A DNA stretch of 64,000 bases, taken from contig NZ_CP119108.1 of assembly GCF_029094505.1 (NCBI RefSeq), positions 248,001-312,000 on the forward strand. Direction: 5' to 3'. The translations under genes and the position numbers were made by a program. Shown here piece after piece: positions 8,801 through 33,102 of the stretch. The notes under the pieces are model-generated. The model had not been told where the DNA came from. It saw only the letters and a program-made list of their open reading frames with translations, and did not search any database. Each line of letters opens with the position of its first letter. Position 1 is the stretch's first letter. The DNA comes from Microbacterium horticulturae (GTDB taxonomy: Bacteria > Actinomycetota > Actinomycetes > Actinomycetales > Microbacteriaceae).

Positions 8801-8858
8801 TTCGGTCGTCACGTATTACCGTGTTTCGAGAGCGAAACGGTCATTCGTGACGACCGAA
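8801..8858. repeat. 58-bp palindromic intergenic element, solitary copy
   Basis: The outer arms TTCGGTCGTCACG and CGTGACGACCGAA pair perfectly over 13 bp, and the pairing continues imperfectly inward through TTACCGTG and GAAACGGTC. Length and ends match the paired copies at 14058, 15614, 24572, 24644, 28368, 28440, 29796, 29869, 32973 and 33045. No second copy is seen 14 bp away, so this is the only singleton in the window. Confidence 0.85.
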
Positions 8859-8965
8859 CGGGATGCGGCATCCATCGTCGTCGAGATCACCATGACTGCA
8901 CAATCATTGGTTTGAAACACTAGTCATGCACGAGAGGCGTGTGGCCGTGCAAGGTGGTTTGACCG

Positions 8966-9010
8966 GAAAAAAAGAAGAAACCCCCGGGCGTAGAAGCCAC
9001 CCAAGGGTTC
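8966..9010 (-). terminator. rho-independent terminator of the tRNA cluster
   Basis: On the minus strand, AACCCTTGGG pairs with CCCGGGGGTT (plus-strand arms 8979-8988 and 9000-9009) across an 11-base loop. A U-rich tract follows, complementary to the A-rich run at 8967-8980. It directly follows tRNA-Phe. Confidence 0.9.
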
Positions 9011-9013
9011 CAG

Positions 9014-9086
9014 TGGCTCCGACGGGCGTCGATCCCGTGACCTCACGATTTTCAGTCGTGCGCTCTACCAACTGAGCTACAGAGCC
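9014..9086 (-). tRNA. tRNA-Phe (anticodon GAA)
   Basis: 73 nt cloverleaf with acceptor GGCTCTG/CGGAGCC, anticodon loop CTGAAAA giving GAA, and a GTTCG-type T arm variant GGATCGA. CCA is not encoded. It is the last of three tRNA genes read Glu-Asp-Phe on the minus strand, a common actinobacterial arrangement. Confidence 0.97.
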
Positions 9087-9146
9087 GTGCGGCATTCCTG
9101 CCGCATCTAAACGAAAGGCCCTTCGAAAAGGGCCCGTCGCTCGGAG

Positions 9147-9220
9147 CGACCCTGACGGGACTTGAACCCGCGACCTCCGCCGTGACAGGGCGGCACGCTA
9201 ACCAGCTGCGCTACAGGGCC
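9147..9220 (-). tRNA. tRNA-Asp (anticodon GTC)
   Basis: 74 nt cloverleaf with acceptor GGCCCTG/CAGGGTC, anticodon loop CTGTCAC giving GTC, and T loop TTCAAGT. The 60-bp gap to tRNA-Phe holds a small hairpin (GGCCCTT/AAGGGCC, about 9115-9135), probably a processing or attenuation structure. Confidence 0.97.
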
Positions 9221-9246
9221 ATGCTTGTGAAATTGTATCGGAAGAG

Positions 9247-9319
9247 TGACCCCAACGGGATTCGAACCCGTGCTACCGCCGTGAAAGGGCGGCGTCCTAG
9301 GCCGCTAAACGATGGGGCC
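9247..9319 (-). tRNA. tRNA-Glu (anticodon TTC)
   Basis: 73 nt cloverleaf with acceptor GGCCCCA/TGGGGTC, anticodon loop CTTTCAC giving TTC, and T loop TTCGAAT. It is first in the Glu-Asp-Phe transcript. CCA is not encoded. Confidence 0.97.
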
Positions 9320-9876
9320 GGATGAACCCTCGCCCTCGCAGGCTTGGTCTCACGCTTGCCGACGCTCAAGCATAAGAGATTCCCGCCAGAATCGCCAATC
9401 CGACCGGGGAGTTCACGTGTCCCGGGCGTGTCCGGCCCCGCGCGCCCGCGCGTGCGCACGTTCGACACGCGGTTTCTGCAGGCGCAGATAGCGACTGCTG
9501 AACAGAAAGGGAGGGTGGATGCCGCGGCGCCGCGCTCGCCGGCGCGCCCGAGGCGATGTGTGGCCAACGCTTCGGCCGGGGCTGTTCAGAACTCATCCAT
9601 TCGGGCGCTTCGCGCCGCGCACGGGCCGCATAGCGCCGGGTTGCGCCCGGATCGGCTGACCTCTGAACGCGGGGCCGCGGCATCCACCCCACCGAACGGA
9701 ATCAAACGCCGCGCGCCGCGCCTCCTTCTCTATAGGACGAAGCGCGCGCATGATGAGGTGATCCGCGGTCGGCGATACCACCCGATCCTGTGAATGCTGT
9801 TGCAAATGTGAAAACTGTTGCTACCGTGGAAACAACTGTGCCGTAGCCCGACGCGTGCACGGGGGAGGGAAGCCGG
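9320..9876. other. intergenic region between tRNA cluster and M23 peptidase gene
   Basis: No reading frame here looks coding. Two copies of the GGATGCCGC word are present (about 9517 and 9677, the second inverted). Near 9790-9835 there are two CTGTTGC direct repeats 16 bp apart and a TTGCAA...TACCGT pair that could be the promoter of the downstream peptidase gene. Nothing else is recognised. Confidence 0.5.
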
Positions 9877-11280
9877 GTGATCGACGACCGATCGACAGAC
9901 CCTGAAGAGTGCGATTGTGCACCCTCGGAGCGCGAGCGTCGGGTGCTGTGGCCCGATCTGAAGACCGTGACGCGGCGCAGTGCGCTGGCGATCGGCATCC
10001 TCGGCGTCGCTGCGGCCGGCGTGGTTGCCGCACCGCGCATCCCCGCGGCGTTCGCCGCCGACTACCCGTCGTGGGACGACGTGCAGCGTGCCAAGAGGAG
10101 CGAGTCGGCGAAGTCGGCCGAGGTCAGCAAGATCGAGACCCTCATCGCCAATCTGAAGGCGGCGGCCGCGGCCGCGCAGCAGAAGGCAGAGCTTGCCGGC
10201 GACGCCTACTTCCAAGCGCAGCAGGACTTCCTCGACGCAGCCCGCCGCGCTGACGACCTGCAGGATCAGGCCGACAAGCAGGCCAAGAAGGCCGACGAAG
10301 CCGCCGACAAGGCCGGCCAGGTCGCCGCCCAGCTCTACCGCAACGGCGGCGACAATGCCTCGCTCGAGCTCTTCCTCTCCGGCTCGGCGAAGGGGGCCGA
10401 CGACCTGCTCGCGCGCCTGGGCACGATGGACAAGCTGCTCGACGCCAATCAAACGGTGTATGCCGAGGCGGTCGCCGCGCGCGACTCGGCGCAGAGCCTC
10501 AGCGATCAGGCCAAGTCGCAGCGCGAAGAGCGCGACCGGCTGCAGAAGATCGCCGAGCAGAAGATGATCGAAGCGCAGAATGCCGCGCAGGCAGCGCAGG
10601 CTGCGGTCGAGACGCAGGACGCCCACCTCGAAGACCTCGAGGCGCAGCTGGCGGCGCTCCACGACAAGACCAGCAAGACCGTCACCGACTACAAGAAGGG
10701 CGTCGAAGCCCGCCGCAAGGCCGAAGAGGCCCGCAAGAAGCGCGAGGCCGAGGCCCGGCGCAGGGCCGCGGCTGCGGCCGCCGCGGCAGCCGCCAAGAAC
10801 CACTCCTCAGGCGGGGGCTCGTCGTCCGGCGGCGGTGGTGGCGGCGGCGGGGGAGGCGGCGGCTCCGGATGGGTCCGCCCCAACCACGGCTGGCAGAGCT
10901 CGGGCTACGGGCGCCGATCGGTGCAGTGCACGAGCGGATACTGCTCGAGCAGCTTCCACGAGGGCGTCGACCTGGCCGACAGCTGCAGCAGCAACATCTA
11001 CGCCGCGCACTCGGGCACGGTCGTCTACGCCGGGTACAACGGCGGCTACGGCTACTACGTGAAGATCAATCACGGCGGCGGCATCGCGACCGGCTACGGG
11101 CACATCCGCCAGGGCGGCATCTTCGTCGGCTACGGCCAGCACGTGAGCGCCGGCCAGGTCATCGCCAGCGAGGGCAACACCGGCAACTCGTTCGGCTGCC
11201 ACCTCCACTTCGAGGTGTACGTCAACGGCCGCACCGTGAACCCCGCGCCGTTCATGGCTGCGCGCGGAATCTCGGTCTGA
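9877..11280 (+). CDS. secreted M23 family metallopeptidase with coiled-coil domain
   Basis: 467 residues from a GTG start. A twin-arginine-like signal (RR at 33-34, then ALAIGILGVAAAGVVAAP) ends near AFA-A at residue 60. Residues about 70-300 are Ala/Glu/Lys/Gln-rich coiled coil, followed by Ala and Gly runs. The M23 endopeptidase domain fills about 355-462, with HEGVDLAD supplying the first metal ligands and HLHFEV the last. Such proteins cleave peptidoglycan cross-bridges or activate amidases at division, like NlpD/EnvC/RipA partners. The first 30 residues before the RR pair are unusually acidic and cysteine-bearing, so a later start is possible. Confidence 0.9.
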   Translation: MIDDRSTDPEECDCAPSERERRVLWPDLKTVTRRSALAIGILGVAAAGVVAAPRIPAAFAADYPSWDDVQRAKRSESAKSAEVSKIETLIANLKAAAAAAQQKAELAGDAYFQAQQDFLDAARRADDLQDQADKQAKKADEAADKAGQVAAQLYRNGGDNASLELFLSGSAKGADDLLARLGTMDKLLDANQTVYAEAVAARDSAQSLSDQAKSQREERDRLQKIAEQKMIEAQNAAQAAQAAVETQDAHLEDLEAQLAALHDKTSKTVTDYKKGVEARRKAEEARKKREAEARRRAAAAAAAAAAKNHSSGGGSSSGGGGGGGGGGGGSGWVRPNHGWQSSGYGRRSVQCTSGYCSSSFHEGVDLADSCSSNIYAAHSGTVVYAGYNGGYGYYVKINHGGGIATGYGHIRQGGIFVGYGQHVSAGQVIASEGNTGNSFGCHLHFEVYVNGRTVNPAPFMAARGISV

Positions 11281-11292
11281 CTTCTCCTGCAA

Positions 11293-11332
11293 CGAAGGGG
11301 GGGTGGATGCCGCGGCATCCACCCCCCCTTCG
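11293..11332. terminator. bidirectional terminator, perfect 40-bp palindrome
   Basis: A perfect inverted repeat centred at 11312/11313. Outer arms CGAAGGGGGGG and CCCCCCCTTCG surround the two face-to-face copies of the GGATGCCG word. It lies between the convergent M23 peptidase and ppa genes and can terminate both. The GGATGCCGC word forms the hairpin top. Confidence 0.85.
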
Positions 11333-11339
11333 TGTGCTG

Positions 11340-11825
11340 TCAGTGGCTCTCGAAGCGCGCAGCGGCCTCTTCGACGAGGCGCTCGGCCTCGGCGGCGCTC
11401 GCCCACTCGTCGACCTTGACCCACTTGCCCTCTTCGAGGTCCTTGTAGTGCTCGAAGAAGTGCGAGATCTCCTTCTTCGTGTGCTCGGGGATATCGGCGA
11501 CGTCCTGGATGTGGGCCCAGCGCGGGTCCTTCGCCAGAACCGCGACGACCTTGTCGTCTCCGCCGGCCTCATCGGTCATGTGCAAGACGCCGACCGGGCG
11601 CACGCTCACGTGCACTCCGGGGAACAGCGTCTGGTCGAGGAGGACGAGCACGTCGAGCGGGTCGCCGTCTTCGCCCAGCGTCTTGTCGAAGAAGCCGTAA
11701 TCGGCCGGATAGCCGAACGACGTGAACAGGATTCGGTCGAGGTAGACGTTGCCGGTCTCGTGGTCGACTTCGTACTTCACGCGGCTGCCGCGCGGGATCT
11801 CGATGACGGCGTCGTACGCGCCCAT
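11340..11825 (-). CDS. ppa: inorganic pyrophosphatase
   Basis: 161 residues, the usual size for a soluble family I enzyme. It hydrolyses pyrophosphate to phosphate and so drives biosynthesis forward. The signature DPLDVLVLLD carries the metal-binding aspartates (near residues 53-62), and YGFFDKTLGEDGDPLD and PRWAHIQDVADIP are typical. It is monocistronic, with its 3' end at the shared palindromic terminator. Confidence 0.97.
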   Translation of the reverse strand: MGAYDAVIEIPRGSRVKYEVDHETGNVYLDRILFTSFGYPADYGFFDKTLGEDGDPLDVLVLLDQTLFPGVHVSVRPVGVLHMTDEAGGDDKVVAVLAKDPRWAHIQDVADIPEHTKKEISHFFEHYKDLEEGKWVKVDEWASAAEAERLVEEAAARFESH

Positions 11826-12027
11826 GCTTGTGCTCCTTCGATGACGGGAATTCCGCGGACAAGCCTAGTCGTGCCACGGGCCCGGTCGTTGAGCGGGCGC
11901 AGCGAGCCGAAGCGACGCGGCTCATGCGTACCGTCAACAGGGGGAACGGTGCCTCGCGACTTCCGGGAGGCGCCGGAAGTCCGATTCACCATGTAGACGG
12001 TACGCGCCGCAGCGCTACGGTGAGACG

Positions 12028-13017
12028 ATGGAGCACCGCCCGAGCCTCGACCCCGCCACAGCGCAAACGCGCTCGGCCGTGCGGCAGGCGCTGGCCGAGA
12101 TCCGCCCGGGGGCGGTGGTCGTCGCCCTGTCGGGCGGCGCCGACTCGCTCGCCCTGGCCGCCGCGACCGCGTTCGAGGCGCCGAAGCGCGGCATGACCCT
12201 GATCAGCGCGACCATCGACCACGCTCTGCAGGCGGGATCCGCCGAGGTCGCCGAGACCGCGGCGCGCCAGGCGGAGGAGCTCGGCTTCGACGCCCGCATC
12301 GAGCGCGTCGAGGTCGGCGCGGACGGCGGGCCCGAGGCGGCGGCCCGCACGGCGCGCTACACGGCGCTCGCGCGCGTGGCCGGCGAGGTCGATGCCGCAG
12401 CGGTGCTGGTCGCGCACACCCTCGACGATCAGGCCGAGACCGTGCTGCTGGGGCTGGCCCGAGGATCGGGCGCCGGCAGCCTGCAGGGGATGGCTGCGGC
12501 ATCCACTCTCCAGGGGATTCTGCTGCTGCGTCCCTTTCTCGCGCTGGGACGCGTGACCACCCGCGCAGCCTGTGCGGCTCAGGGGCTCGAGCCGTGGGAC
12601 GACCCGCAGAACACCGACCCCTCTTATGCGCGCGTGCGCGTGCGCGAGCGCGTGCTGCCCGTGCTCGAGGCCGAGCTCGGGCCCGGCATCGCCGAGGCGC
12701 TGGCTCGCACGGCCGAGCAGGCGCGGGAGGATGCCGCAGCCTTCGCCGCGATGGTCGACGAGACGATCGAAGACATCGTGGAACCCGCCGAGGCCGGTAT
12801 CTCGGTCTCGGTGCCGGCGCTCGCCGCGAACCCGGCGGCGCTGCGGCACCGGATCATCCGGCACGTGGTGGCCAGCGAATTCGGACAGAGCCTGACCCGC
12901 GCGCAGACGCTCGAGGTCGCGCGGCTCGTCACCGACTGGGCGGGGCAGGGGCCTCTTGATCTGCCGGGATGCACGGCACGGCGGGTGGGAGCGCGGATCG
13001 TCTTCACGGCGCGCTGA
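12028..13017 (+). CDS. tilS: tRNA(Ile)-lysidine synthetase
   Basis: 329 residues, the short form usual in Actinobacteria. The PP-loop ATP-pyrophosphatase motif SGGADS is at residues 35-40 and the second signature HTLDDQAETVLLGLARGSG is near 130. It converts C34 of the AUA-reading tRNA-Ile to lysidine. It is followed by hpt after 21 bp, the conserved tilS-hpt-ftsH order. Here the IS element separates hpt from ftsH. Confidence 0.95.
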   Translation: MEHRPSLDPATAQTRSAVRQALAEIRPGAVVVALSGGADSLALAAATAFEAPKRGMTLISATIDHALQAGSAEVAETAARQAEELGFDARIERVEVGADGGPEAAARTARYTALARVAGEVDAAAVLVAHTLDDQAETVLLGLARGSGAGSLQGMAAASTLQGILLLRPFLALGRVTTRAACAAQGLEPWDDPQNTDPSYARVRVRERVLPVLEAELGPGIAEALARTAEQAREDAAAFAAMVDETIEDIVEPAEAGISVSVPALAANPAALRHRIIRHVVASEFGQSLTRAQTLEVARLVTDWAGQGPLDLPGCTARRVGARIVFTAR

Positions 13018-13038
13018 GGCGACCCGTACACTCGACGT

Positions 13039-13590
13039 ATGCGTGCGACGGACATCTCCGACCAGATCACGACCACCCTCGTCACCGAAGAGCAGATCCA
13101 GGAGAAGCTGCGCGAGATCGCAGCCCAGGTTGCCGCGGACTACGAGGGCAAAGACCTGCTGCTCGTGGGCGTTCTGAAGGGGGCCGTCATGGTGATGGCC
13201 GACTTCGCGCGGGCGCTGCCGTACGTCGTGCCGATGGACTGGATGGCCGTCTCCTCCTACGGCAGCGGCACGAAGTCGAGCGGCGTCGTGCAGATCCGCA
13301 AGGATCTCGACACCGACCTGCACGACCGGCACGTGCTCATCGTTGAAGACATCATCGACTCCGGACTGACGCTGAGCTGGCTGCTCGAGAACTTCGCGTC
13401 GCGCGGAGCCGCCTCGGTCGAGGTCTTCGCTCTGCTGCGCAAGCCCGATGCCGCGAAGGTGCAGGTCGACTGCAAATACATCGGCTTCGACATCCCGAAC
13501 GAATTCGTCATCGGCTACGGGCTGGACTACGACGAGCGCTACCGCAACGTGCGCGACGTCGCCGTGCTCGCGCCGCACGTCTATAGCTGA
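13039..13590 (+). CDS. hpt: hypoxanthine phosphoribosyltransferase
   Basis: 183 residues. The PRPP-binding loop HVLIVEDIIDSGLTLSWLL lies near residues 95-113, and the N-terminal LLLVGVLKGAVMVMADFARAL is typical. It salvages hypoxanthine and guanine to IMP and GMP. It is probably cotranscribed with tilS, and the next gene starts 1 bp after its stop. Confidence 0.97.
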   Translation: MRATDISDQITTTLVTEEQIQEKLREIAAQVAADYEGKDLLLVGVLKGAVMVMADFARALPYVVPMDWMAVSSYGSGTKSSGVVQIRKDLDTDLHDRHVLIVEDIIDSGLTLSWLLENFASRGAASVEVFALLRKPDAAKVQVDCKYIGFDIPNEFVIGYGLDYDERYRNVRDVAVLAPHVYS

Positions 13591-13591
13591 G

Positions 13592-13954
13592 ATGGCCGGC
13601 GTGCCTAGGCCGGTGGGTGTGCCGGCCGAGCCGCCGCACGCCTGCCGCGAACTGCGTGCGTTCCTGGACGATCCGCGGTTGCCGGTCGGCTACGACCCGC
13701 AGTTCCGCGAGTACTGGATGCCGGTGGTCGTGGCGCCGGGCCAGGCCGCGGTGCGGCAGCTCTTCGTGTTCTGTCCGTGGTGCGGAGCGAAACTGCCCGT
13801 GCCGCTGAGCGAGCAGTGGTGGGACGAGCTCGCCGACGTCGTGCCCGAGAACATCCCGCCGCACGACCCGCAGGACTGGGTGCCCGCGCCCTACCGCTCC
13901 GACGCGTGGTGGCGCGGGCGCTTCGACGACGATGGCCGGCTGATCGTGGAATGA
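13592..13954 (+). CDS. small conserved protein with CPWCGAKLP zinc-ribbon-like motif
   Basis: 120 residues from the ATG at 13592, 1 bp after the hpt stop, so probably translated with it. The middle carries FVFCPWCGAKLPVPL, a CxxC knuckle seen in small proteins of unknown function. The C-terminus is rich in Trp, Asp and Pro. No second CxxC is present, so a full zinc ribbon would need a dimer or partner. The function is unknown. Confidence 0.7.
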   Translation: MAGVPRPVGVPAEPPHACRELRAFLDDPRLPVGYDPQFREYWMPVVVAPGQAAVRQLFVFCPWCGAKLPVPLSEQWWDELADVVPENIPPHDPQDWVPAPYRSDAWWRGRFDDDGRLIVE

Positions 13955-14057
13955 TGCGGGGCGGGATGCCACGGGGCGACGCCTCGCGGTCGCGCGCCGC
14001 GGCATCCACTCATCTCGTTCAGTCTCGGCGGCTCATCGCGCGCGCCGACGCGTCGTG

Positions 14058-14115
14058 TTCAGTCGTCACAGATGACGACTTTTCGCGCGAGGATCGGTAA
14101 TCCGCGACGACCGAA
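14058..14115. repeat. 58-bp palindromic element, left member of the IS-split pair
   Basis: Ends TTCAGTCGTCACAG and CGCGACGACCGAA, with a TTTTCGCGCGAGGATC core. It is followed immediately by the 14-bp TSD and the IS element. Before the insertion it formed a pair with the copy now at 15614-15671, with a 14-bp spacer. Confidence 0.9.
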
Positions 14116-14129
14116 TCTCGGGCGGGGAT
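14116..14129. repeat. left target-site duplication of the IS481-family element
   Basis: TCTCGGGCGGGGAT, identical to 15600-15613. It abuts the 58-bp element on the left and the IS terminus TGTTATG on the right. Confidence 0.9.
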
Positions 14130-15599
14130 TGTTATGTCGCAGGACATTGGTGACAGTTCTGTATCAGGACATCGGTGACATTTCGGGGGGTTTGGTGGTG
14201 ACACTTCTCCTGGAATTGGTGGGTGAGTAGCAATCAGCCTGTCGATGCCCGTGTCCGTCTCGCGATCGCCCAGTGGCCAGTGGACGCCCCGCGTGGGTCG
14301 GTGACCTCGTTCTGTGCTGAGCACGGTCTTTCCCGGAAGACGTTCTACGCGATCCGTGCCCGTGCCCGGGCGGAGGGACAAGCCGCGGCGCTGGAGCCGC
14401 GGTCGCGGCGGCCGCGGTCCTCCCCGACCGCGTTTGGGGAGGACGTGAAGCAGCAGGCGCTGGGCGTGCGTGCCGCGCTGGAGGCATCGGGGCTGGACCA
14501 TGGTCCGATCAGCGTGCACGACAAGATGACCGCGCTGGGCATGCACGCACCGTCCACGGCGTCGCTGGCGCGGATCTTCCGGGAGAAGGGTGCTGCCCGG
14601 CACGAGCCGAAGAAGAAGCCCCGTTCTGCGTACCGCCGGTTTGTTTATCCGGCACCGAACGCGTGCTGGCAGCTGGATGCGACCGAGTACGTGCTCACCG
14701 GTGGCCGTACGTGCGTGATCTTCCAGCTTCAGGACGACCATTCCCGGGTCGCGGTCGCGTCCCACGTCGCCCCCGGAGAGACCAGCGAGGGCGCGTTGGC
14801 CGTGTTCAAGAAGGGCGTGGCCGCTCGCGGGGTGCCGCAGCGGCTCCTCACCGACAACGGGGTAGCGCTGAACCCGACCCGACGCGGTTGGGAAGGTCAG
14901 CTGGTGAGCTTCGCCACGTCCCTCGGGGTGGAAGCGATCACCGGGAAGCCGTACAAGCCGACCACGCAAGGCAAGAACGAACGGTTCCATCAGACCCTGT
15001 TCCGCTGGCTGGACAAGCAGCCCATCGTCGAGTCGATTCAACAGCTCCAGGAGCAGGTCGACCGGTTCGACGTGATCTACAACACCGAACGCCCCCATCA
15101 AGGACTGCCGGGACGGGTGACCCCGCAGCACGCATGGGATGCCACCCCTCTCGCCGAGCCACCCCGACCCAAGCCCGCGCCCGTCGAACCGGTCGTGCCC
15201 GTCGCCCGCGCCAAGCCTGACGGCCTAGCCGGGCACCCACCACACCGTCCCAGGGCCGGCGTCATCCGGACGGGGGAGCACGGTCACAGCAACGTGATCG
15301 TCCCCGCCAACGGCGCCGTGCGCGTGCGGATGATCCTGTTCAACATCAGCAGCCGCAGGGCAGGACAGAGGATCCACGCCATCTGGGACCCGCTCGGCGT
15401 CGTCTTCGCCGACCGCCACGGCGAAGTCATCGCCGAGCACCCCTGGCCACCCCACGGCACCCGCTACGTGAGCAGCGGCGCCCGCCGCGGACGTCCCCTC
15501 ACCCAACCCACACAACACGAACCGTCACCGATGTCCTGATACATGAAGCGTCACCGATCTCCTGATACAGAACCGTCACCGATGTCCTGAGACATCACA
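14130..15599 (+). mobile_element. complete IS481-family insertion sequence (1470 bp)
   Basis: Termini are TGTTATGTCGCAGGAC at the left and, inverted, TGTGATGTCTCAGGAC at the right, giving the TGT...ACA ends expected for IS481. Perfect 14-bp target duplications flank it. Subterminal copies of CAGGACATCGGTGAC lie at 14140-14154 and 14165-14179 on the left. On the right, inverted, they lie at 15524-15538, 15550-15564 (one change) and 15575-15589, spaced 25-26 bp, and probably bind the transposase. The single transposase frame is intact, so the element may still be active. It splits the conserved hpt-ftsH neighbourhood. Confidence 0.93.
14223..15539 (+). CDS. IS481-family transposase (DDE integrase fold)
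   Basis: 438 residues from a GTG at 14223. An N-terminal helix-turn-helix (VTSFCAEHGLSRKTFYAIRARARAEG) precedes an rve integrase core. The likely catalytic triad is D152 (QLDATEY), D211 (LLTDNGVAL) and E253 (GKNERFHQT), with YNTERPHQGLPGRVTP as the typical C-terminal end of the core. A Pro-rich linker and an extra domain of about 110 residues follow. The last codons (EPSPMS) lie inside the innermost right-end CAGGACATCGGTGAC repeat, so the protein's tail and a transposase binding site share sequence. No frameshift is seen. Confidence 0.93.
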   Translation: MSSNQPVDARVRLAIAQWPVDAPRGSVTSFCAEHGLSRKTFYAIRARARAEGQAAALEPRSRRPRSSPTAFGEDVKQQALGVRAALEASGLDHGPISVHDKMTALGMHAPSTASLARIFREKGAARHEPKKKPRSAYRRFVYPAPNACWQLDATEYVLTGGRTCVIFQLQDDHSRVAVASHVAPGETSEGALAVFKKGVAARGVPQRLLTDNGVALNPTRRGWEGQLVSFATSLGVEAITGKPYKPTTQGKNERFHQTLFRWLDKQPIVESIQQLQEQVDRFDVIYNTERPHQGLPGRVTPQHAWDATPLAEPPRPKPAPVEPVVPVARAKPDGLAGHPPHRPRAGVIRTGEHGHSNVIVPANGAVRVRMILFNISSRRAGQRIHAIWDPLGVVFADRHGEVIAEHPWPPHGTRYVSSGARRGRPLTQPTQHEPSPMS

Positions 15600-15613
15600 T
15601 CTCGGGCGGGGAT
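15600..15613. repeat. right target-site duplication of the IS481-family element
   Basis: TCTCGGGCGGGGAT, identical to 14116-14129. It lies exactly between the IS end (ACA) and the first base of the next 58-bp palindrome. Confidence 0.9.
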
Positions 15614-15671
15614 TTCAGTCGTCACGGATGACCACTTTCGGCGGGGAGAACGGTAATCCGTGACGACTGAA
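15614..15671. repeat. 58-bp palindromic element, right member of the IS-split pair
   Basis: Ends TTCAGTCGTCACGGATGACC and GGTAATCCGTGACGACTGAA pair over about 20 bp with two or three mismatches around a GC-rich loop. It is the partner of 14058-14115 before the IS insertion. Confidence 0.9.
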
Positions 15672-15854
15672 CGGAGTGGGGGGATGCCGCGGCCCGACGC
15701 CACCCGCTGATGCCAACGGCCGCAGGCCCGCCGCGCCCGGCCCTGTACGCCGTGGGCGAATGCACAGACCCCGCAAAGCCGTGCGCGATACCCTGAAACG
15801 ATAGTCCGCGAGAGGCGGACAGCGACGAAAGGGCTCGGAGGCCGTCTCCGCACC

Positions 15855-17852
<1,998 letters not shown>

Positions 17853-24571: not shown

Positions 24572-24629
24572 TTCCGTCGTCACGTGTGACCGCGATGCTG
24601 CGAGAAAGTGGTCGTTCTCGACGACAGAG
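24572..24629. repeat. 58-bp palindromic element (pair 2, left, degenerate)
   Basis: Begins TTCCGTCGTCACGTGTGACC and ends GTGGTCGTTCTCGACGACAGAG. The arms still pair but with more mismatches than other copies. A 14-bp spacer separates it from 24644-24701. Confidence 0.75.
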
Positions 24630-24643
24630 TTCGCGGCCCGATG

Positions 24644-24701
24644 CTGAGTCGTCACAGATGACCGCTCTGACGCGTGAAGACCGTCATCTGTGACGGCCGA
24701 A
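24644..24701. repeat. 58-bp palindromic element (pair 2, right)
   Basis: CTGAGTCGTCACAGATGACC pairs with a right arm ending CGTCATCTGTGACGGCCGAA. The core is GCTCTGACGCGTGAAGA. Confidence 0.85.
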
Positions 24702-26409: not shown

Positions 26410-26474
26410 CGGTGGTGGATGCCGCGCCCCGCGGCGCCCCGCCCGTTCATTGAGACCGCGGGTACGATGGGTGC

Positions 26475-26663: not shown

Positions 26664-26671
26664 CTTCACGA

Positions 26672-26775
26672 GAGCGAGCGGCTCTTCGTCCCGCTCGCTC
26701 AGGGGCCTGAGCGCACGTCGCGCGCCGCGGCATCCCGATCCCCGCGCCCGCCATCTCTGACGGCGGGCGCTTTGC
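26672..26775 (+). terminator. two hairpins downstream of the lysS-small membrane protein genes
   Basis: GAGCGAGCGG and CCGCTCGCTC pair at about 26672-26699, and GCGCCCGCC with GGCGGGCGC at about 26745-26770, followed by TTT. Both precede the cls promoter region. Confidence 0.6.
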
Positions 26776-26813
26776 GGATACTCTGAGTCCACAGGGAGTG
26801 TGGGGGAGGTCGG

Positions 26814-28271
26814 ATGGCGCAGATCGTCGAGTGGTGGCCGATCGTCGTCCTCGTCTTCGACATCATCATCCGCGTCGCGGCGATCATCATCGTTCCGCGC
26901 AACCGCCGCCCTACTGCGGCGATGGCCTGGCTTCTGGCCATCTATTTCATCCCCGTCGCGGGCGTGTTGCTGTTCCTGCTCATCGGCACGCCGCACCTGC
27001 CGCGCAAGCGGCGGCGCAAGCAGGACGACATCAACGAGTTCATCCGCGACGCCAGCGCTCAGCTCGACCTAGGATCGCTGCGTCCGGGCGCGCCGGAGTG
27101 GTTCACGTCTCTGGTGACGATGAACCACCAGCTGGGTGCCATGCCGCTGGCCGGCGACAACGAAGCGCACCTCATCTCCGACTACCAAGGCAGCATTGAT
27201 GCGATGGCCCAGGCCATCCGCGGGGCGCAGAAGTACGTGCACGTCGAGTTCTACATCCTGCAGACGGACGCCTCGACCGACGGATTCTTCGCGGCGCTCG
27301 AAGACGCGTGTGCCCGCGGCATCCCGGTCCGTGTCCTCTTGGACCACTGGGCCAACTGGCGCAAGCCGTTCTATCGGAAGACGCTGAAGCGGCTGGACGC
27401 CATGGGTGCGCGATGGAAGCTCATGCTGCCGGTGCAGCCGCTGAAGGGAAAGTATCAGCGCCCCGACCTGCGCAACCACCGCAAGCTGCTCGTCGTCGAC
27501 GGCGACGTGGCGTTCATGGGTTCGCAGAACGTCACCGATTCGACGTACAACTTGCGCAAGAACGTCAAGCGCGGATTGCACTGGGTCGATCTGATGGTGA
27601 AACTTCACGGACCCATCGTCGGGTCGGTGAACGCGGTGTTCCTGTCGGACTGGTACAGCGAGACCGACGAGGCGCTGCAGACCGAAGACGAGATGTTCGC
27701 GATCGGCGAGAGCGGTGGCGACCTCGACTGCCAGATCGTGCCGAGCGGGCCGGGATTCCGGTTCGAGAACAACCTGCGGCTGTTCCTCGGGCTGATGTAC
27801 TCGGCACAGCGCAAGCTCATCATCGTGAGCCCCTACTTCGTGCCCGACGAGGCGCTGCTGCTCGCGGTGACCACGGCGTGCCATCGCGGGCTGCAGGTCG
27901 AGCTGTTCGTGTCGGAGATCGGCGACCAGGCGCTCGTCTACCACGCGCAGCGCAGTTACTACGAGGCGCTGTTGCGGGCGGGCGTGCGCATCTGGCTGTA
28001 TAGGGCGCCGTACATCCTGCACTCGAAGTCGATGACGATCGACGACGAGGTCGCGATCATCGGCTCGAGCAACATGGACATGCGCTCGTTCGGTCTGAAC
28101 CTGGAGATCTCGATGCTCGTGCGCGGCGAAGAGTTCGTCGCGGAGATGCGCGAGGTCGAGCAGCAGTACCGCGAGCTGTCGCGCGAGATCACGCTCGAGG
28201 AGTGGCGCAAGCAGCCGCTGCGCTCGACCGTGCTCGACAACATCGCGCGGTTGACCTCGGCGCTGCAGTAG
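26814..28271 (+). CDS. cls: cardiolipin synthase (phospholipase D family)
   Basis: 485 residues. Two N-terminal membrane helices (about 6-24 and 36-57) are followed by two phospholipase D modules with HxK(x4)D motifs: HRKLLVVDGDVAFMGSQN near residue 222 and HSKSMTIDDEVAIIGSSN near 402. It condenses phosphatidylglycerol (or CDP-diacylglycerol) into cardiolipin at the membrane. GGGGAGG lies 5 bp before the ATG. It is monocistronic. Confidence 0.95.
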   Translation: MAQIVEWWPIVVLVFDIIIRVAAIIIVPRNRRPTAAMAWLLAIYFIPVAGVLLFLLIGTPHLPRKRRRKQDDINEFIRDASAQLDLGSLRPGAPEWFTSLVTMNHQLGAMPLAGDNEAHLISDYQGSIDAMAQAIRGAQKYVHVEFYILQTDASTDGFFAALEDACARGIPVRVLLDHWANWRKPFYRKTLKRLDAMGARWKLMLPVQPLKGKYQRPDLRNHRKLLVVDGDVAFMGSQNVTDSTYNLRKNVKRGLHWVDLMVKLHGPIVGSVNAVFLSDWYSETDEALQTEDEMFAIGESGGDLDCQIVPSGPGFRFENNLRLFLGLMYSAQRKLIIVSPYFVPDEALLLAVTTACHRGLQVELFVSEIGDQALVYHAQRSYYEALLRAGVRIWLYRAPYILHSKSMTIDDEVAIIGSSNMDMRSFGLNLEISMLVRGEEFVAEMREVEQQYRELSREITLEEWRKQPLRSTVLDNIARLTSALQ

Positions 28272-28367
28272 GGGTCGCGGCTCGCTTGTCGTTTTGCGGG
28301 GGTGCGCGGGACCGCGGCATCCCGCGGCTTTGCGGGGTGCGCCGGCCCGCGGCATCCACCCCTCTCA

Positions 28368-28425
28368 TTCAGTCGTCACGGATTACCGTCTTCACGTCCC
28401 AGAACGGTCATCTGTGACGACCGAA
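28368..28425. repeat. 58-bp palindromic element (pair 3, left)
   Basis: TTCAGTCGTCACGGATTACC pairs with a right arm AACGGTCATCTGTGACGACCGAA. The core is GTCTTCACGTCCCAG. A 14-bp spacer follows. Confidence 0.9.
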
Positions 28426-28439
28426 CGGCGCGCGGCGAT

Positions 28440-28497
28440 TTCGGTCGTTACAGATGACCATTTCAGCGCTCGAAAGCGGTCATCTGTGACGACTGAA
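28440..28497. repeat. 58-bp palindromic element (pair 3, right)
   Basis: TTCGGTCGTTACAGATGACC and GGTCATCTGTGACGACTGAA pair over 20 bp with a single mismatch plus wobble positions. This is the most perfect hairpin of the set. Confidence 0.9.
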
Positions 28498-28564
28498 GAC
28501 TCGCGTCGCGCGCGCAAAGGGCAACGGGACGATGGATGCCGCGGCACGGCGCGTGCGCGAGCGT

Positions 28565-29568
28565 TCAGCGCGACCGGCGGACGATCGCGTCGCGCACGCG
28601 GGCGACGAGCAGGTCGGGATGCTGAAAGAGCAGCGTGCGCGAGACGCGGATGACGAGCCAGCCGGCAGCCTCCAGGCGCGCATACCGCTCGATGTCGCTC
28701 TCCCACTGCTGATCGGTGTTGTGGTGCGCGCCCTCGTACTCGATGGCGATCTTCCACTGCGGGTAGGCCTGGTCGACGCGTGCGACGAATCGCTCCGCGT
28801 GGTCGAGAACATCATGGTCGAGAACGGGTTCGGGCAGCCCGCCGTCGATGAGGGTCAAGCGGGTCCAGGTCTCGGGGCGTGACGCTGAACCCGTGCGCAC
28901 ACGAGGGAGTGCGTCCCGCAGATGGTGGATGCCGCGGCGGCGGCCGGCGTCCACGGCAGACGTCAGCTGCTTCAGCGTCGCAAGTGGCGGCGCGACTGGT
29001 TCGTTCGGTCGGCTGAACGGTGGTCGATGACCCGCACGAAGTAGTCCGCTGCCGCGACGAGGTCGTAGGGGTGCGGCAGGACCGTCGCGAGCATCGCCCA
29101 CGTCGAGGATGGCGATGTCACCCGCAGCCCTGAGACAGGGTGCGCCACCGTGTGCACGAGCGGACGGCGAAGGGCGTGACCCGTGATGCCGCTGTGGCGT
29201 GGTGCCCGGTGCGGCCAGATCACGCCGACGTCGAGATGAGCATCGGTGCTTGTCAGTAACGGCTTCGGGAGTGGAGCATCCCACAGAACCGCGGCGGTGA
29301 CGCCGGCGAAGAAGGCGTCGTCGGGCATTACGGCGGCGAACTGCATCGCGCGCTGGTGGATGCGTTTCTCCGCCGCGCTGCGTGGATACGCGCGCCGGGC
29401 ATCGGCCTCCTCGTCGACGATGAGCGACGCGCCGATGACGCTGCGCGCGGCGTAGAACGGGCGCTCGAGGTCGCGGCGGCGCAGGCGCGAGGGGCTCACT
29501 CCGGCGCTGCGAGCGGCGACGACATCGAACGCGGCGCCGAGAGTCGGCGGCAGGTCGTCCGATGGCAT
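28565..29568 (-). pseudogene. frameshifted DUF559 / AbiEi-like protein gene
   Basis: Two frames make one protein. From the ATG at 29568 the first frame runs MPSDDLPPTLGAAFDVVAAR to about residue 180 and then ends in out-of-frame RRHLRR. The -1/+1 frame continues with PVAPPLATLKQL, RTGSASRPETWTRLTLIDGG and a DUF559-type nuclease-like end, KIAIEYEGAHHNTDQQWESD to RDAIVRRSR at 28565. The switch lies near 29000-29015. Related actinobacterial proteins have an AbiEi-like N-terminus and a very-short-patch-repair/restriction-endonuclease-like C-terminus. A one-base indel (or sequencing error) is the simplest reading. Confidence 0.8.
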
Positions 29569-29795
29569 GCAGACACTGTGGCATGGATGCCGCGACCGCC
29601 GTTTCGGTTATCCACAGGCTCGTGCTTGTCGCGGTGTCGGGCCCGCGCTTCGTTGCTGTCTGCGAGCGCGCCGGGTCGCGGCATCCACCCCGCTCTCGGT
29701 CGTTTCGGGTGCGGCTTCCACCCGCTCTCGTCGTTTCGGTCGTGGAATGCACCCGCTCTCGGCATCCACCCCTCGCGGCATGCACCCGCTCGCGA

Positions 29796-29853
29796 TTCGG
29801 TCGTCGCGGATTACCGTTTTCGGCGCGTGAAGTCGTCATCTGTGACGACTGAA
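29796..29853. repeat. 58-bp palindromic element (pair 4, left)
   Basis: Identical over all 58 bp to the copy at 29869-29926, so this pair is a recent duplication or has been homogenised. Arms TTCGGTCGTCGCGGATTACC and TCATCTGTGACGACTGAA. Confidence 0.95.
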
Positions 29854-29868
29854 AACTCGATGCATTCG

Positions 29869-29926
29869 TTCGGTCGTCGCGGATTACCGTTTTCGGCGCG
29901 TGAAGTCGTCATCTGTGACGACTGAA
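29869..29926. repeat. 58-bp palindromic element (pair 4, right)
   Basis: Exact copy of 29796-29853, with a 15-bp spacer between them (14 in all other pairs). Confidence 0.95.
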
Positions 29927-30001
29927 CGAGGGTACGGGTTCGGGAGCCGCCGCGTGAGGCTCGCGCAACGCGCGGCCCGCTGAAGCCCGGCCCGCCGAAC
30001 C

Positions 30002-30481
30002 TCAACCGGCAGAGCGCCCGCGCCCGGTCGTGATGACGGGGCCCATGCCGCCCTCTTCGGGCGGCTTGGTCGTCACCGCCGGCCGTGACGCGTCGCCGAA
30101 TGCCGACACGAGGATGTCGCGCACGCTGTCGAAGCGGCGCGCGAACACGAGCAGGTCGTCGAGGCGCATCGGCTCGTCGCCATGCTGCAGCCGCGAGATG
30201 CGGTCGAGCGTGACCTCGGGCGAGGTGGTGTGAAGCGTCGGCAGCAGCGTCGCGAGGTTCGTGCGCAGCATGAGCACTTCCTCACGCATCGCGTTCGCGA
30301 CCCAGTGCTGCAGGTTCGCGGCGATGAACCGTGCGTCTGTGGGGTCGACCCCCGCGGCGGCGCGCATGGGCTTGCCCCAGCGCCCGAACATCTCAGGGCG
30401 ATCGACGAGGTCGCGCGGGCGCGCGTCGTCGCCGGCATCTTCGGTCGCATCGCGCCGCGGATTGAACACGAACTCGGTCAC
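30002..30481 (-). CDS. hypothetical protein
   Basis: 159 residues starting MTEFVFNPRRDATEDAGDDA. The middle is mostly helical and amphipathic (DARFIAANLQHWVANAMREEVLMLRTNLATLLP; RLDDLLVFARRFDSVRDILVSAF). The tail is disordered and Gly/Pro-rich. No membrane segment, signal or catalytic motif is seen. It reads on the same strand as the operon at 30525-32840 but 43 bp after its last stop, so it may be a separate unit. Confidence 0.65.
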   Translation of the reverse strand: MTEFVFNPRRDATEDAGDDARPRDLVDRPEMFGRWGKPMRAAAGVDPTDARFIAANLQHWVANAMREEVLMLRTNLATLLPTLHTTSPEVTLDRISRLQHGDEPMRLDDLLVFARRFDSVRDILVSAFGDASRPAVTTKPPEEGGMGPVITTGRGRSAG

Positions 30482-30524
30482 TCTTCGATGCTAAGTGGCC
30501 CGGGACGGGACGGGATGCCGCGGC

Positions 30525-30755
30525 TCAGTCCGCCCGCACGAGCAACTCGCCGACCTCACAGTCGAGCGCGCGGCAGATCGCCGAGAGCGTCGAGTAGCGG
30601 ATCGCCCGTGCGCGGTCGTTCTTGAGCACCGACAGGTTCACGATCGAGACGCCGACCAGCTCGCTGAGGCGGGTCAGGGTCATGCCGCGTTCGGCGAGCA
30701 GCTCGTCGAGCCGGCAATGGATGCCGGTGAGCTCGTCCTCGTCGGCGGGAGTCAC
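30525..30755 (-). CDS. XRE-family (YozG-type) transcriptional regulator
   Basis: 76 residues, nearly all helix-turn-helix: RLDELLAERGMTLTRLSELVGVSIVNLSVLKNDRARAIRYSTLSAICRALDCEVGELL. YozG-type regulators are typically paired with DUF2975 membrane proteins. It is last in a four-gene overlapping operon (its start overlaps the stop of the gene at 30752). It probably binds the TTATCG inverted repeats before the operon. Confidence 0.85.
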   Translation of the reverse strand: MTPADEDELTGIHCRLDELLAERGMTLTRLSELVGVSIVNLSVLKNDRARAIRYSTLSAICRALDCEVGELLVRAD

Positions 30756-31492
30756 ACGAGCCCCTCCGTGTCACGCTGCAGGGTGGCACCATACTGGAAC
30801 GCCGCGGCCACGAGGGCCAACCCGAGCGCCCAGAAGACGGGCGAACTGTCGAGGCTCAGCGCGCTCCCGATGCTTTCGCAGAGGCCCTCCGAGGTGCATC
30901 CGCTGGTGGTGCCGTCTGGACCGAGGAAGTCGATCAGACGACTCTGCACGATCGCGTCGAACACCTGGGTGCCTATGCCGCCGATGAGCACCGCGATCGC
31001 GCTGATGCCGATCGCGATCGGGAGGCGTCGCCCGAAAGGTCGCCGGCGCAGCACGCGGAGTGCCAGCCAGACGATCGTGATCGCTACGGCGAGGGCGGCC
31101 ACCCAGGGCAGCGCGTCCTGAAGCCAGAGGGCCCAGCGGGTTGCGGCATCCACCCCCTTCACCTGGAGCCAGAGCGTGGAGTAGCCGCCGTCGACGATCG
31201 CGGGCGTGTCGCGCACGAAGTCGGGCGCCTCCGTGCTGCTCAGAGCAACGTCGGTGAAGAACCGCGTCGGCGAGGTGAACGCCTGGATGCCGACGCTGAC
31301 GATCGCCGTCGCGCTGTATGCGGCGAGCAGCAGCGAGGCCGCGCCGGCTGCTGCGGCGACCACGGCTGTTGCACGCCGTGCGGCACGGCTGGTGCGATTC
31401 CCGGCGAAGACGGCGAGGGCGACGATGACGATGACGACCAGCGACGGGGCGCCGAGCCAGGTTGCGAGGAACGCCCAGTCGACGTAGCCCAT
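30752..31492 (-). CDS. DUF2975-like membrane protein, paralogue 3
   Basis: 246 residues from the ATG overlapping the upstream stop. Membrane segments at about 7-28, 40-66, 125-150, 160-185 and 220-240. The C-terminus LQRDTEGLV is shared with the two preceding genes, as is the layout of a large extracytoplasmic loop after helix 2. Role unknown. Probably a membrane partner of the XRE regulator. Confidence 0.75.
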   Translation of the reverse strand: MGYVDWAFLATWLGAPSLVVIVIVALAVFAGNRTSRAARRATAVVAAAAGAASLLLAAYSATAIVSVGIQAFTSPTRFFTDVALSSTEAPDFVRDTPAIVDGGYSTLWLQVKGVDAATRWALWLQDALPWVAALAVAITIVWLALRVLRRRPFGRRLPIAIGISAIAVLIGGIGTQVFDAIVQSRLIDFLGPDGTTSGCTSEGLCESIGSALSLDSSPVFWALGLALVAAAFQYGATLQRDTEGLV

Positions 31493-32100
31493 CACACCAG
31501 CCCCTCGGTGTCGCGCTGAAGCGCGAGCCCGCGGCGGTACGCGATGCCGATCAGCCCGCACGCACAGCCGACGGCCCACATCGGGGCGTATCCCCAGAAG
31601 CCGACCGAGGGGGCGACATCCGCATCTTGAAGGCCGAGGGCAGCAAGCACGCCATTGCCGCCGAGGGTGTCGCCGACGAGCATGAGCACGCCGCCGGCGA
31701 CGAGTGCGCCGCCGATGACATCCCAGGCGCGCGCGGTGCGGCGAGTGAAGAGCGTGCCGCGCATTGCGCTGCGCGCCAGGAACATGACGCATCCGATAAC
31801 GACGAGCGCCGTCAGGATCGAAGCGACCAGCGACACGATGATCATGACGATCGACACAGCATTGACGTGCTCGGCGAAGACCGTGCCTTCGCCGACGATC
31901 GCGGAGACGTCGCCCGTCGCCGAACCGACCGTCGCGTTGACCGGCATCTCGTCGATCTGGATGTGCCAGGCGATGCCCAGCGGCGCGCGGAACGTGGAGT
32001 AGGCGCGATCGGCTCCCCACCACACGGTGGCGACCGCGGCGATGACGCCGATCGCCAGAACGGTGGCCGAATCGCTTCTCTCGCGCGTGGTCGTGGTCAT
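31492..32100 (-). CDS. DUF2975-like membrane protein, paralogue 2
   Basis: 202 residues from the ATG at 32100, overlapping the previous gene by ATGA. Four membrane segments (about 12-30, 85-108, 125-145 and 165-190). It ends LALQRDTEGLV. It is shorter than its two siblings, mainly in the extracytoplasmic loop. Confidence 0.75.
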   Translation of the reverse strand: MTTTTRERSDSATVLAIGVIAAVATVWWGADRAYSTFRAPLGIAWHIQIDEMPVNATVGSATGDVSAIVGEGTVFAEHVNAVSIVMIIVSLVASILTALVVIGCVMFLARSAMRGTLFTRRTARAWDVIGGALVAGGVLMLVGDTLGGNGVLAALGLQDADVAPSVGFWGYAPMWAVGCACGLIGIAYRRGLALQRDTEGLV

Positions 32101-32840
32101 CACACGAGCCTCTCCGTGTCGCGCTGCAGCACAGCGCCGTACTTGAGCACCGCGGCCAGCGCGGCGAAGCCGAGCCCGGCGCCGATCGGCCAGAACGGGA
32201 TCATCACTGACATCGTCGGCTGCGGCAGAAGCGCGTCGATATCTTGTTGCGGATCGGTCCACGATGCCGCGGTCATCGACAGCAGTTCGTGCGAGACGAT
32301 GCTGCCGCCGATCTGGCTGAGCACGTCGGCCGTGACTCCGCCGACGAGCACCATGACCGCGGTGACAAGCGCGGCGCGCACGACCATGCGCGCGAACGGC
32401 ACGCCGCGCAGCAGCTGGAAGCACGTGATGGCAATGAGCGCAGCCACCGCGGCGGGCACGAGGTAGCCGATGCCCTGCCCGAGCGCCCAGAACACGCGCG
32501 CGGCGGTGCTCGCCCCGGTGACCCAGACGTCGGCCGAGGTGAAGCCGCCGCTCTCCAGGTGCGCCGACGTCGTGACAGTGACGCCGTCGGGCAGCGGCGG
32601 CCAATACTCGTTCACCGGGATCGTGAAGTGCACCGAGTCCGAGGCCAGCACCGTGATGACCGTGCCGATGGCCAACAGCAGCGAGACCGCTGCGACGATC
32701 GCTGCGCCCGACAGGGTGATGCCGACAGTGGTGTCGATGCCGCGCCGCCGCCAGCCGCGCAGCGCCAGCGCGACGACCAGCACGATGATCGCCACGACGG
32801 CGAGCAGCACCAGCAGGTGCACCCACGAGAATGAGCCCAC
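32100..32840 (-). CDS. DUF2975-like membrane protein, paralogue 1
   Basis: 246 residues from a GTG at 32840 with AGGAG just upstream. Membrane segments at about 6-28, 40-65, 115-140, 150-175 and 210-235, with the tail VLQRDTERLV. First gene of the operon. The shared C-terminal nonapeptide and equal topology show that the three genes arose by tandem duplication although the rest has diverged widely. Confidence 0.75.
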   Translation of the reverse strand: MGSFSWVHLLVLLAVVAIIVLVVALALRGWRRRGIDTTVGITLSGAAIVAAVSLLLAIGTVITVLASDSVHFTIPVNEYWPPLPDGVTVTTSAHLESGGFTSADVWVTGASTAARVFWALGQGIGYLVPAAVAALIAITCFQLLRGVPFARMVVRAALVTAVMVLVGGVTADVLSQIGGSIVSHELLSMTAASWTDPQQDIDALLPQPTMSVMIPFWPIGAGLGFAALAAVLKYGAVLQRDTERLV

Positions 32841-32849
32841 GACGTCTCC

Positions 32850-32882
32850 TTATCGATAGTCGTTGTTATCGAAGAACGATAA
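32850..32882 (-). promoter_or_regulatory. operator with TATCGATA and TTATCG-N5-CGATAA
   Basis: Just upstream of the first DUF2975-like gene: TATCGATA (32851-32858) and a perfect inverted repeat TTATCG/CGATAA (32866-32871/32877-32882). The AT content stands out from the surroundings. The likely ligand is the XRE protein encoded at the end of the operon (autoregulation). Confidence 0.6.
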
Positions 32883-32972
32883 GGGCGGTGGATGCTGCGC
32901 GTCAAGGGGTCTGCGCGGCTCGCGGCTTCCCGTGCCGTCGTTTCTGCGCGGCTCGCGGCATCCACTGTGTAC

Positions 32973-33030
32973 TTCAGTCGTCGCGGATTACCGATTTCCC
33001 GGCACAGAACGGTCATCTGCGACGACCGAA
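32973..33030. repeat. 58-bp palindromic element (pair 5, left)
   Basis: TTCAGTCGTCGCGGATTACC pairs with AACGGTCATCTGCGACGACCGAA. The core is GATTTCCCGGCACAG. Confidence 0.9.
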
Positions 33031-33044
33031 GTCTGAGTCGCAAT

Positions 33045-33102
33045 TTCAGTCGTCGCAGATTACGGCTGTGGCGCGCAGAAATAGTCATCCGTGACGACTG
33101 AA
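33045..33102. repeat. 58-bp palindromic element (pair 5, right)
   Basis: TTCAGTCGTCGCAGATTACG and a right arm ATAGTCATCCGTGACGACTGAA. The 14-bp spacer 33031-33044 separates it from its partner. The rest of the gap up to clpC holds one GGATGCCGC word and the clpC leader with GGAGGAG. Confidence 0.9.

Follow-up and report, generated by a model that had tools for sequence, protein, structure and literature searches.

Palindromes, an insertion sequence, and a nuclease gene in the window

The stretch of DNA analyzed here (64 kb from Microbacterium horticulturae, referred to as the window) contains 11 palindromes of 58 bp, 10 of which form five pairs. We located them by alignment and with a covariance model and assign them no strand; the coordinates given for all eleven in a preliminary description of this DNA were borne out by gap-free alignment. 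One unit, at 8801 to 8858, is single. The units at 14058 to 14115 and 15614 to 15671 form a pair split by an insertion sequence (IS). In the pair at 24572 to 24629 and 24644 to 24701, the left unit is the weakest and most degenerate copy (right end GACGACAGAG) and aligns without gaps, while the right unit begins CTGAG in place of TTCRG. Two further pairs lie on either side of a predicted nuclease gene, with units at 28368 to 28425 and 28440 to 28497 downstream and at 29796 to 29853 and 29869 to 29926 upstream, the last two being identical in sequence. The fifth pair (32973 to 33030 and 33045 to 33102) is located between a minus-strand ORF and a clpC-like gene. The spacers, 14 bp in the pairs starting at 24572, 28368, and 32973 and 15 bp in the one starting at 29796, are those first reported, as is the 14-bp spacer of the split pair, TCTCGGGCGGGGAT, found on either side of the IS.

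The units sit among divergent, convergent, and codirectional ORFs, and their neighbors, which include clpC-like, ftsH-like, and tRNA genes, have no evident function in common. No Rfam family was found at the palindromes, the window yielding only tRNAs and a TPP riboswitch at gathering scores. The possibility that GGATGCCGC and GCGGCATCC extend the unit outward was considered and rejected, since these sequences are frequent all over the window.

The IS, on the plus strand at 14130 to 15599, is IS481-like and has the ends TGTTATGTC and GACATCACA. Its transposase ORF (about 14223 to 15539, plus strand) scored 198.1 bits with transpos_IS481, compared with a cutoff of 224. As read from the sequence, the 14-bp segments at 14116 to 14129 and 15600 to 15613 are the left and right copies of one spacer that was duplicated by the insertion. 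All four copies of this element in the genome sit between two palindromes, and the 14- to 15-bp target duplication stops at the palindrome edge. This parallels ISPpu9, for which PMC8450116 describes seven copies in REPs; the element here differs in being IS481-like and in the position of its target duplication.

The nuclease gene, at 28565 to 29568 on the minus strand, appears frame disrupted; M. protaetiae, M. fluvii, and M. luticocti have it with an open reading frame. The protein, of the MTES_1575/DUF559 type, is predicted to combine an AbiEi-like region with an EDxHD/Vsr-type nuclease domain that has the corresponding catalytic fold, a reading that relies on VIA-align; Foldseek gave no match for the protein model at an E value of 0.001, and PADLOC returned weak matches only. 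Residues of catalytic type (E241, E285, H291, and D300) are invariant in 93 homologues. Three Arthrobacter plasmid replicons carry homologues with 26 to 31% identity. Proteins of this family are currently named DUF559 or endonuclease domain-containing, and in PMC3710099 MTES_1575 is described as a novel REase of the Vsr type that is fused to HEPN; in the open-licence PMC literature we found no report linking AbiEi with DUF559. DUF559 proteins at large were rejected as the partner of the palindromes, as five of the six DUF559 places in the genome are 6 kb or more away from any palindrome and DUF559 loci lack two-sided palindromes at a strict threshold. The preliminary description had not named the nuclease gene.

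Copies across the genome

The arm pattern GTCGTCRCNGATKACC, allowing up to two mismatches, occurs at 190 forward and 197 reverse sites in the genome, compared with 24 and 31 for the reversed pattern, which shows that the palindrome arms are present beyond chance. The covariance model built from the eleven window copies retrieved 54 full-length copies, each of 58 bp, at 29 places, together with a partial copy of 44 bp and a weak match of 23 bp (E value of 0.009); the search returned 111 rows, as most copies match on both strands. Since the model scored 150 of 5,376 first-pass candidates, weaker copies could have been missed and 54 is a lower bound. Seventeen unsplit pairs account for 34 of the units, with spacers of 14 bp (9 pairs), 15 bp (5 pairs), 13 bp (2 pairs), and 44 bp (1 pair); a further 8 units form four IS-split pairs, and 12 are single.

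The genome is therefore not populated mostly by single copies, nor are lengths or spacers variable, and the idea of a paired unit holds for this genome. The compound REP/BIME-like architecture with near-fixed spacing proposed earlier is likewise supported and so, by inference, is the two-site protein that had been suggested along with it. The mobile unit of about 130 bp proposed in the same place was not demonstrated; the neighboring pairs at 893804 and 894697 have almost identical spacers, which suggests local copying of a pair. Reading the flanks of the 54 units by eye, we saw no constant target duplication at their edges. A published match to the palindrome was found neither in Rfam nor in the open-licence PMC literature.

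Palindromes and nuclease genes in relatives

Among 295 genomes of the genus, 34 were repeat positive (E value of 1e-4, with stricter filters), many of them with few copies. The outer ends and the pairing are kept in relatives, while the inner arms are species specific. Units there are mostly 58 to 60 bp long, with one of 53 bp, and longer spacers (25, 32, 34 bp, and above) also occur. Repeat positions are common to different species, and within each species the inner arms at these shared chromosomal gaps have changed concertedly. The TTCRGTCG-class pattern, which matches at 39 forward and 34 reverse sites in the M. horticulturae genome, was found in 31 of 398 genomes of the family. Outside Microbacterium it was discarded, given one or two matches per genome and no palindromic appearance among those listed.

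In M. horticulturae and five relatives, the repeats border the AbiEi-EDxHD gene, and other members of the nuclease family have different palindromes alongside, downstream as well as upstream and on one or both sides. At 18 of the 21 family loci with palindromes on both sides, the arms upstream of the gene match those downstream of it (reached in none of 20,000 permutations), and arms differ between genes. A second palindrome class is dispersed in eight of nine genomes.

Interpretation and comparison with known systems

Repeats that flank one kind of predicted nuclease point to a repeat-plus-enzyme system not described so far. We observed the number of copies, their fixed length and spacing, the matched palindromes on both sides of family genes, and the concerted change of inner arms; we consider it probable that a dedicated AbiEi-EDxHD nuclease has these dispersed, REP-like palindromes as its double target sites. 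Each 58- to 60-bp unit would be a double site whose two arms, of about 20 bp, are inverted relative to each other. One AbiEi-like region would recognize each arm in duplex form, and the set distance between arms would let two catalytic domains meet above a sequence-free center. Pairs spaced by 14 to 15 bp would then offer four nearly evenly spaced arms in alternating orientation with a period of about 72 to 75 bp. The repeats remain in fixed chromosomal gaps, and their inner arms change together within species. We infer that the protein binds the arms and that the nuclease cuts or nicks near the unit center; repair of the break or recombination at the repeats would presumably generate pairs and arrays, spread copies, and homogenize arms. 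A stronger version, in which a free-standing homing-type nuclease cuts the palindromes and thereby drives a self-propagating repeat family whose arms are copied and homogenized by repair, is possible but tentative; it would explain the tandem pairs, the arrays, and an inversion of the gene between flanking repeats, as well as species-wide concerted change at fixed gaps.

Several known systems share parts of this arrangement. REP/REPIN-RAYT elements, too, are inverted doublets dispersed between genes, in which the arms are conserved and the center varies (PMC3116915); they form ordered tandem clusters, have clusters beside a dedicated enzyme gene, and are species specific in sequence (PMC3116915, PMC3733652). 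Here, however, the partner is a predicted AbiEi-EDxHD nuclease and not a Y1 tyrosine transposase, the arms of about 20 bp appear to lack the REP stem-loop and GTAG tag, pairs are set at 14 to 15 bp, and the unit exceeds the 20 to 40 bp given for REPs in PMC3733652. The AbiEi family (S. agalactiae abiE and M. tuberculosis Rv2827c) may share the N-terminal fold, and the Rv2827c target consists of 23-bp inverted repeats in two tandem pairs, each spanning 59 bp; yet the operators of that family are described at promoters of toxin-antitoxin operons, whereas our repeats also lie downstream of the gene and are dispersed, and the protein here has a nuclease domain. The unit length resembles the published targets of both Rv2827c and I-Bth0305I, an intron-encoded, phage-borne EDxHD homing endonuclease. 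The nuclease described here is free standing and, compared with I-Bth0305I, Vsr, and DUF559 (ngo0050), is distinguished by many near-identical dispersed sites and the AbiEi-like region; moreover, the gene does not interrupt its presumed site, as that of a homing endonuclease does, but has whole palindromes on one or both sides.

It is conceivable, if unlikely, that the palindromes are operators only, with an AbiEi-like autoregulator, dispersed copies forming a regulon or serving titration, and a nuclease domain that does not act there. Such a role fits AbiEi and Rv2827c, which autoregulate through promoter inverted repeats, the latter with the same 23+13+23 layout, but accounts poorly for palindromes downstream of the gene, for 29 occupied places without evident shared function among the window neighbors, and for the invariant catalytic-type residues. 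We think it improbable that palindromes and nuclease genes merely pile up in the same plastic intergenic gaps without a functional link. In most similar pairs the gene is at orthologous places, some palindrome gaps contain lineage-specific inserts, and the gene is close by at only 5 of 29 best-match palindrome loci, all of which would agree with coincidence; still, arms match across one gene and differ between genes, and IS481 loci, which are equally plastic places, have palindromes at 4 of 25 and on two sides at none. Sites for chromosome organization or replication would be in keeping with the shared positions and with a palindrome-free stretch from 1.09 to 2.32 Mb (when 22 clusters were placed at random 20,000 times, a gap as large arose 65 times), but the patchy occurrence in the genus and the variation of inner arms by species render them very improbable.

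A function as hairpins, be it as bidirectional terminators, mRNA ends, or cruciforms, is highly unlikely. Four units and one pair, treated as single-stranded DNA, do fold better than shuffles (z of −2.4 to −7.7). Nevertheless, arm pairing in the 54 copies is about that expected of independent arms at most positions and lower at several, the exception being central position 29 (paired in 37 of 54 copies versus 23.1 expected), and in the 21 pairs each of the four possible hairpin combinations of arms gives fewer matches than shuffled arms do, whereas both direct-repeat combinations give more. This absence of covariation tells against RNA hairpins or stacked cruciforms, suggested in the preliminary description, as the selected form, and the varied orientation of neighboring ORFs misfits a terminator. 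There is likewise very little to recommend a MITE-like element that a DDE transposase would mobilize: the IS481-like element, the only linked IS found, is tied to the pairs in all its copies, but its ends are unlike those of the palindrome, so that it was dismissed as the mobilizer and appears to be a visitor of the pairs. Reading by eye revealed no constant duplication at unit edges, and none of the IS481 relatives of the genus is at these palindromes among the 29 loci listed. The logic of the repeats is that of REPINs, down to the arrays, yet true REP/REPIN elements mobilized by RAYT can be set aside almost entirely: the RAYT-type Y1_Tnp domain (PF01797) was absent, at Pfam sensitivity, from 294 of 295 genus genomes, and the single positive genome is not among the repeat-positive ones. 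The control search was positive in 5 of 14 named genomes, as expected.

We set the system apart from REP/RAYT because its defining transposase was searched for without being found in any repeat-positive genome and because the open-licence PMC literature yielded no description of a palindrome-nuclease system; defined by its working alone, as REP-like repeats plus an enzyme, the system would fall within the REP kind. REP repeats are known with one dedicated enzyme kind, the RAYT transposase. If the preferred reading of a dedicated nuclease is true, palindromes with an unrelated nuclease would represent a second, independent solution, proteins named only for a domain would gain a function, and the spread, pairing, and concerted change of palindromic repeats would become testable. 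The open gene of three species gives direct access to tests of binding and cutting.

Related DUF559/Vsr-type nucleases may also supply the partner that is missing for other orphan palindromic repeats, for example CGTC-REPs. The latter are described in PMC3733652 as palindromic, mostly inverted dimers with a preference for heterodimers, reportedly without a dedicated transposase, and as occurring in Proteobacteria and four other phyla, Actinobacteria not being among the groups named there. Their stems of 8 to 9 bp and loops of 4 to 5 nucleotides (PMC3733652) differ from the 58-bp unit. By eye, other palindrome classes, e.g., ACTTGCGCTG, have neither GTCGTC nor a short stem. The outer arm of the 58-bp unit, for its part, contains CGTC, and the arms contain GTCGTC, with a possible 4-bp stem if position 17 is G.

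Palindromes in the M. horticulturae genome and its relatives

The preliminary description had claimed eleven 58-bp copies in the window, and on rereading and alignment these are present where it placed them. From these copies we built a covariance model and searched the whole genome (a single contig of 3,645,982 bp, with the window at bases 248001-312000), scoring 150 of 5,376 candidates. This yielded at least 54 full-length copies, every one of 58 bp, besides a partial copy of 44 bp and a weak match of 23 bp. The palindrome observation holds and exceeds a local oddity. The 54 copies form 17 unsplit pairs, four pairs split by an IS481-like element and 12 singles, with spacers in the unsplit pairs of 14 bp (nine), 15 bp (five), 13 bp (two) and 44 bp (one). 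The same search found 1.24 Mb without a full-length palindrome at 1.09-2.32 Mb; when 22 clusters were placed at random 20,000 times, an equally large gap arose in 65 of the trials.

With stricter filters and at E 1e-4, 34 of 295 Microbacterium genomes, this one included, match the model. In five relatives searched in greater depth with the eleven-copy model, the outer ends TTCRGTCG(T/A)C are retained, units are mostly 58-60 bp long (one of 53), and many pairs are spaced by 14-16 bp, with spacers of 25, 32, 34 bp and more also occurring; M. protaetiae even carries seven units in an exact 74-bp period. The inner arms differ by species, being GATKACC here, ATATGGCCCC in M. protaetiae, ATATGGCGACC in M. 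fluvii, and variants of GTCGAC in M. luticocti and M. elymi.

We compared 12 M. protaetiae repeat loci, those among the matches listed, with about 7% of this genome, mostly stretches picked for holding palindromes. For six loci (seven gaps), both flanks align to a gap with palindromes in this genome as well, compared with about one of 12 expected from coverage alone; one array (L188) matches, by a single flank, a window region without a model match, and the other five loci lie outside the compared stretches or are reached at an edge only. The gap corresponding to an M. fluvii pair (L196) likewise has no model match here. At the seven shared gaps, agreement of the inner arms (positions 13-22) between species is 0.50, no higher than the 0.50 at unrelated gaps, whereas different gaps of one species reach 0.70 in this genome and 0.90 in M. 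protaetiae. As judged from these alignments, repeat positions are kept and the inner arms change in concert across the dispersed set.

Two further arrangements were seen in this genome. At 893804-894827 (L060:3805-4828), one ORF lies between two pairs with nearly alike spacers (GATCGGCGGCCTCA and GATCGGGCGGCCTCA), and at 2965830-2968323 (L067:3831-6324), a unit and a partial unit of 44 bp enclose two ORFs that by eye are TetR-like and monooxygenase-like; the matching gap in M. protaetiae contains a plain pair.

The IS481-like element and the reading of the arms

The IS481-like element (transpos_IS481, 198.1 bits, below the cut-off of 224) occurs at window positions 14130-15599 and at three further places in the genome, with an identical protein in all four copies. 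All four sit between two palindromes, the only setting in which the element is found in this genome. Target duplications, read from the sequence, are 14 bp in three copies with spacers of 13-14 bp, and equal the spacer, with or without one additional base. In the fourth copy (1087093), the distance on the left measures 25 bp, and a 14-15-bp duplication still ends at the right palindrome's edge. The palindrome pairs are thus a preferred target of this element, resembling ISPpu9, which prefers REPs (PMC8450116).

Elsewhere in this genome, the palindrome at 112426 is followed after 14 bp by a sequence resembling an IS481-type end (TGTGTATCTCAGGACATCGGTGACA, starting at 112498; L053:4499), beside which no transposase ORF was seen. 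Nearer relatives of the element adjoin repeated TGCCCACA motifs (L153, L157, L163 and L165), and more distant ones in the genus have 15-bp duplications in what by eye appear to be tRNA 3' ends (L169-L173, L175 and L176).

Across the 54 copies, the two arms show at most positions the Watson-Crick pairing expected of independent arms, and at several positions less, e.g., position 17 (16 copies versus 26.5 expected; Fisher p 0.003), with the central position 29 above expectation (37 versus 23.1). We also compared seven variable positions in 21 pairs (four IS-split) with shuffled combinations. For all four hairpin combinations, matches were fewer than after shuffling, with 12 to 129 of 4,000 shuffles giving as few; for both direct-repeat combinations they were more frequent, with 16 and 0 of 4,000 shuffles giving as many. 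The arms look as if duplex DNA is the form in which they are read, long perfect palindromes being avoided, and the pair resembles a product of tandem duplication or conversion. From the geometry, the constant length and free centre would fit two domains needing to meet at the centre.

A proposed partner nuclease gene bordered by palindromes

The same gene lies between neighbouring repeats in M. protaetiae, M. fluvii, M. luticocti and the window, and palindromes also border it in M. elymi and M. terrisoli. Its protein of about 340-350 amino acids, predicted to join an AbiEi-like region to a nuclease domain, weakly matches Pfam MTES_1575 and DUF559. In the window it lies between two pairs with a broken reading frame (28565-29568, minus strand), and in M. 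elymi it appears split. Five of these genomes share a neighbourhood in which the window genes g26814, g30002 or a clpC-like gene adjoin the partner gene. Compared with the window, loci L187, L194 and L198 show that the gene is flipped between species against neighbours that stay fixed. This genome and M. protaetiae differ in this way, as do M. luticocti and M. fluvii with clpC as the reference, which fits recombination between flanking palindromes.

The nuclease family occurs in 188 of the 295 genomes at E 1e-40, at least 154 of them outside the 34 repeat-positive ones, and at such loci other palindromes adjoin the family genes (e.g., GCTCCCCTGTCACGATG, GTTCACTTGCGCTG, TTCGTTCGTCGAAGATG and CGCTCCGCAGTCGC). 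Despite differing sequences, tandem copies at 73-74 bp recur at five loci (L272, L290, L293, L309 and L323); at L282, four copies are spaced by 99 bp.

Controls and standing of the proposed system

With the strict threshold, a palindrome lies no more than 400 bp away at 19 of 29 family loci (eight two-sided), compared with 4 of 25 IS481 loci, 4 of 200 random window places and 6 of 29 DUF559 loci (none two-sided), the last a conservative control because it contains at least four family members. The looser threshold gave 23 of 29 (11 two-sided), against 5 of 25, 12 of 200 and 11 of 29 (one two-sided), respectively. Where palindromes lie on both sides, their arms match at 18 of 21 loci; for mismatched combinations the share is 4% (permutations, 0 of 20,000). 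Arm similarity also correlates with protein identity (Mantel r 0.50, 0 of 5,000; 56 of 70 loci used), a figure that mixes descent and specificity, since most of the similar proteins are at orthologous loci. Conversely, a family gene lies within 1.5 kb of 5 of 29 best-hit palindrome loci, versus 0 of 29 IS loci and 1 of 30 chance loci. A second palindrome class has 1-21 exact copies in all nine genomes (reversed control, none), with a single copy, at the gene, in G136 and copies elsewhere too in the other eight. In other genera and families, 14 of 16 loci have a palindrome within 500 bp at the looser threshold, six with at least 18 of 20 matches; at two (L364 and L368), the arms on either side look alike by eye.

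The repeats work similarly to those of REP-RAYT systems, but RAYTs, the dedicated Y1 transposases that define these, are absent at Pfam sensitivity from 294 of the 295 genus genomes, so at this sensitivity the repeats are not members of that group. A new kind of palindrome-plus-nuclease system, with putative binding and cutting, is probably the best description, and the repeats may spread by break repair.

Within the window, the 9-mer GGATGCCGC/GCGGCATCC is strikingly common (e.g., at 9517, 11305, 24756 and 53892), inside and between ORFs and often close to palindromes, and a TPP riboswitch lies at 59110-59219 on the minus strand (Rfam RF00059, 58.2 bits).
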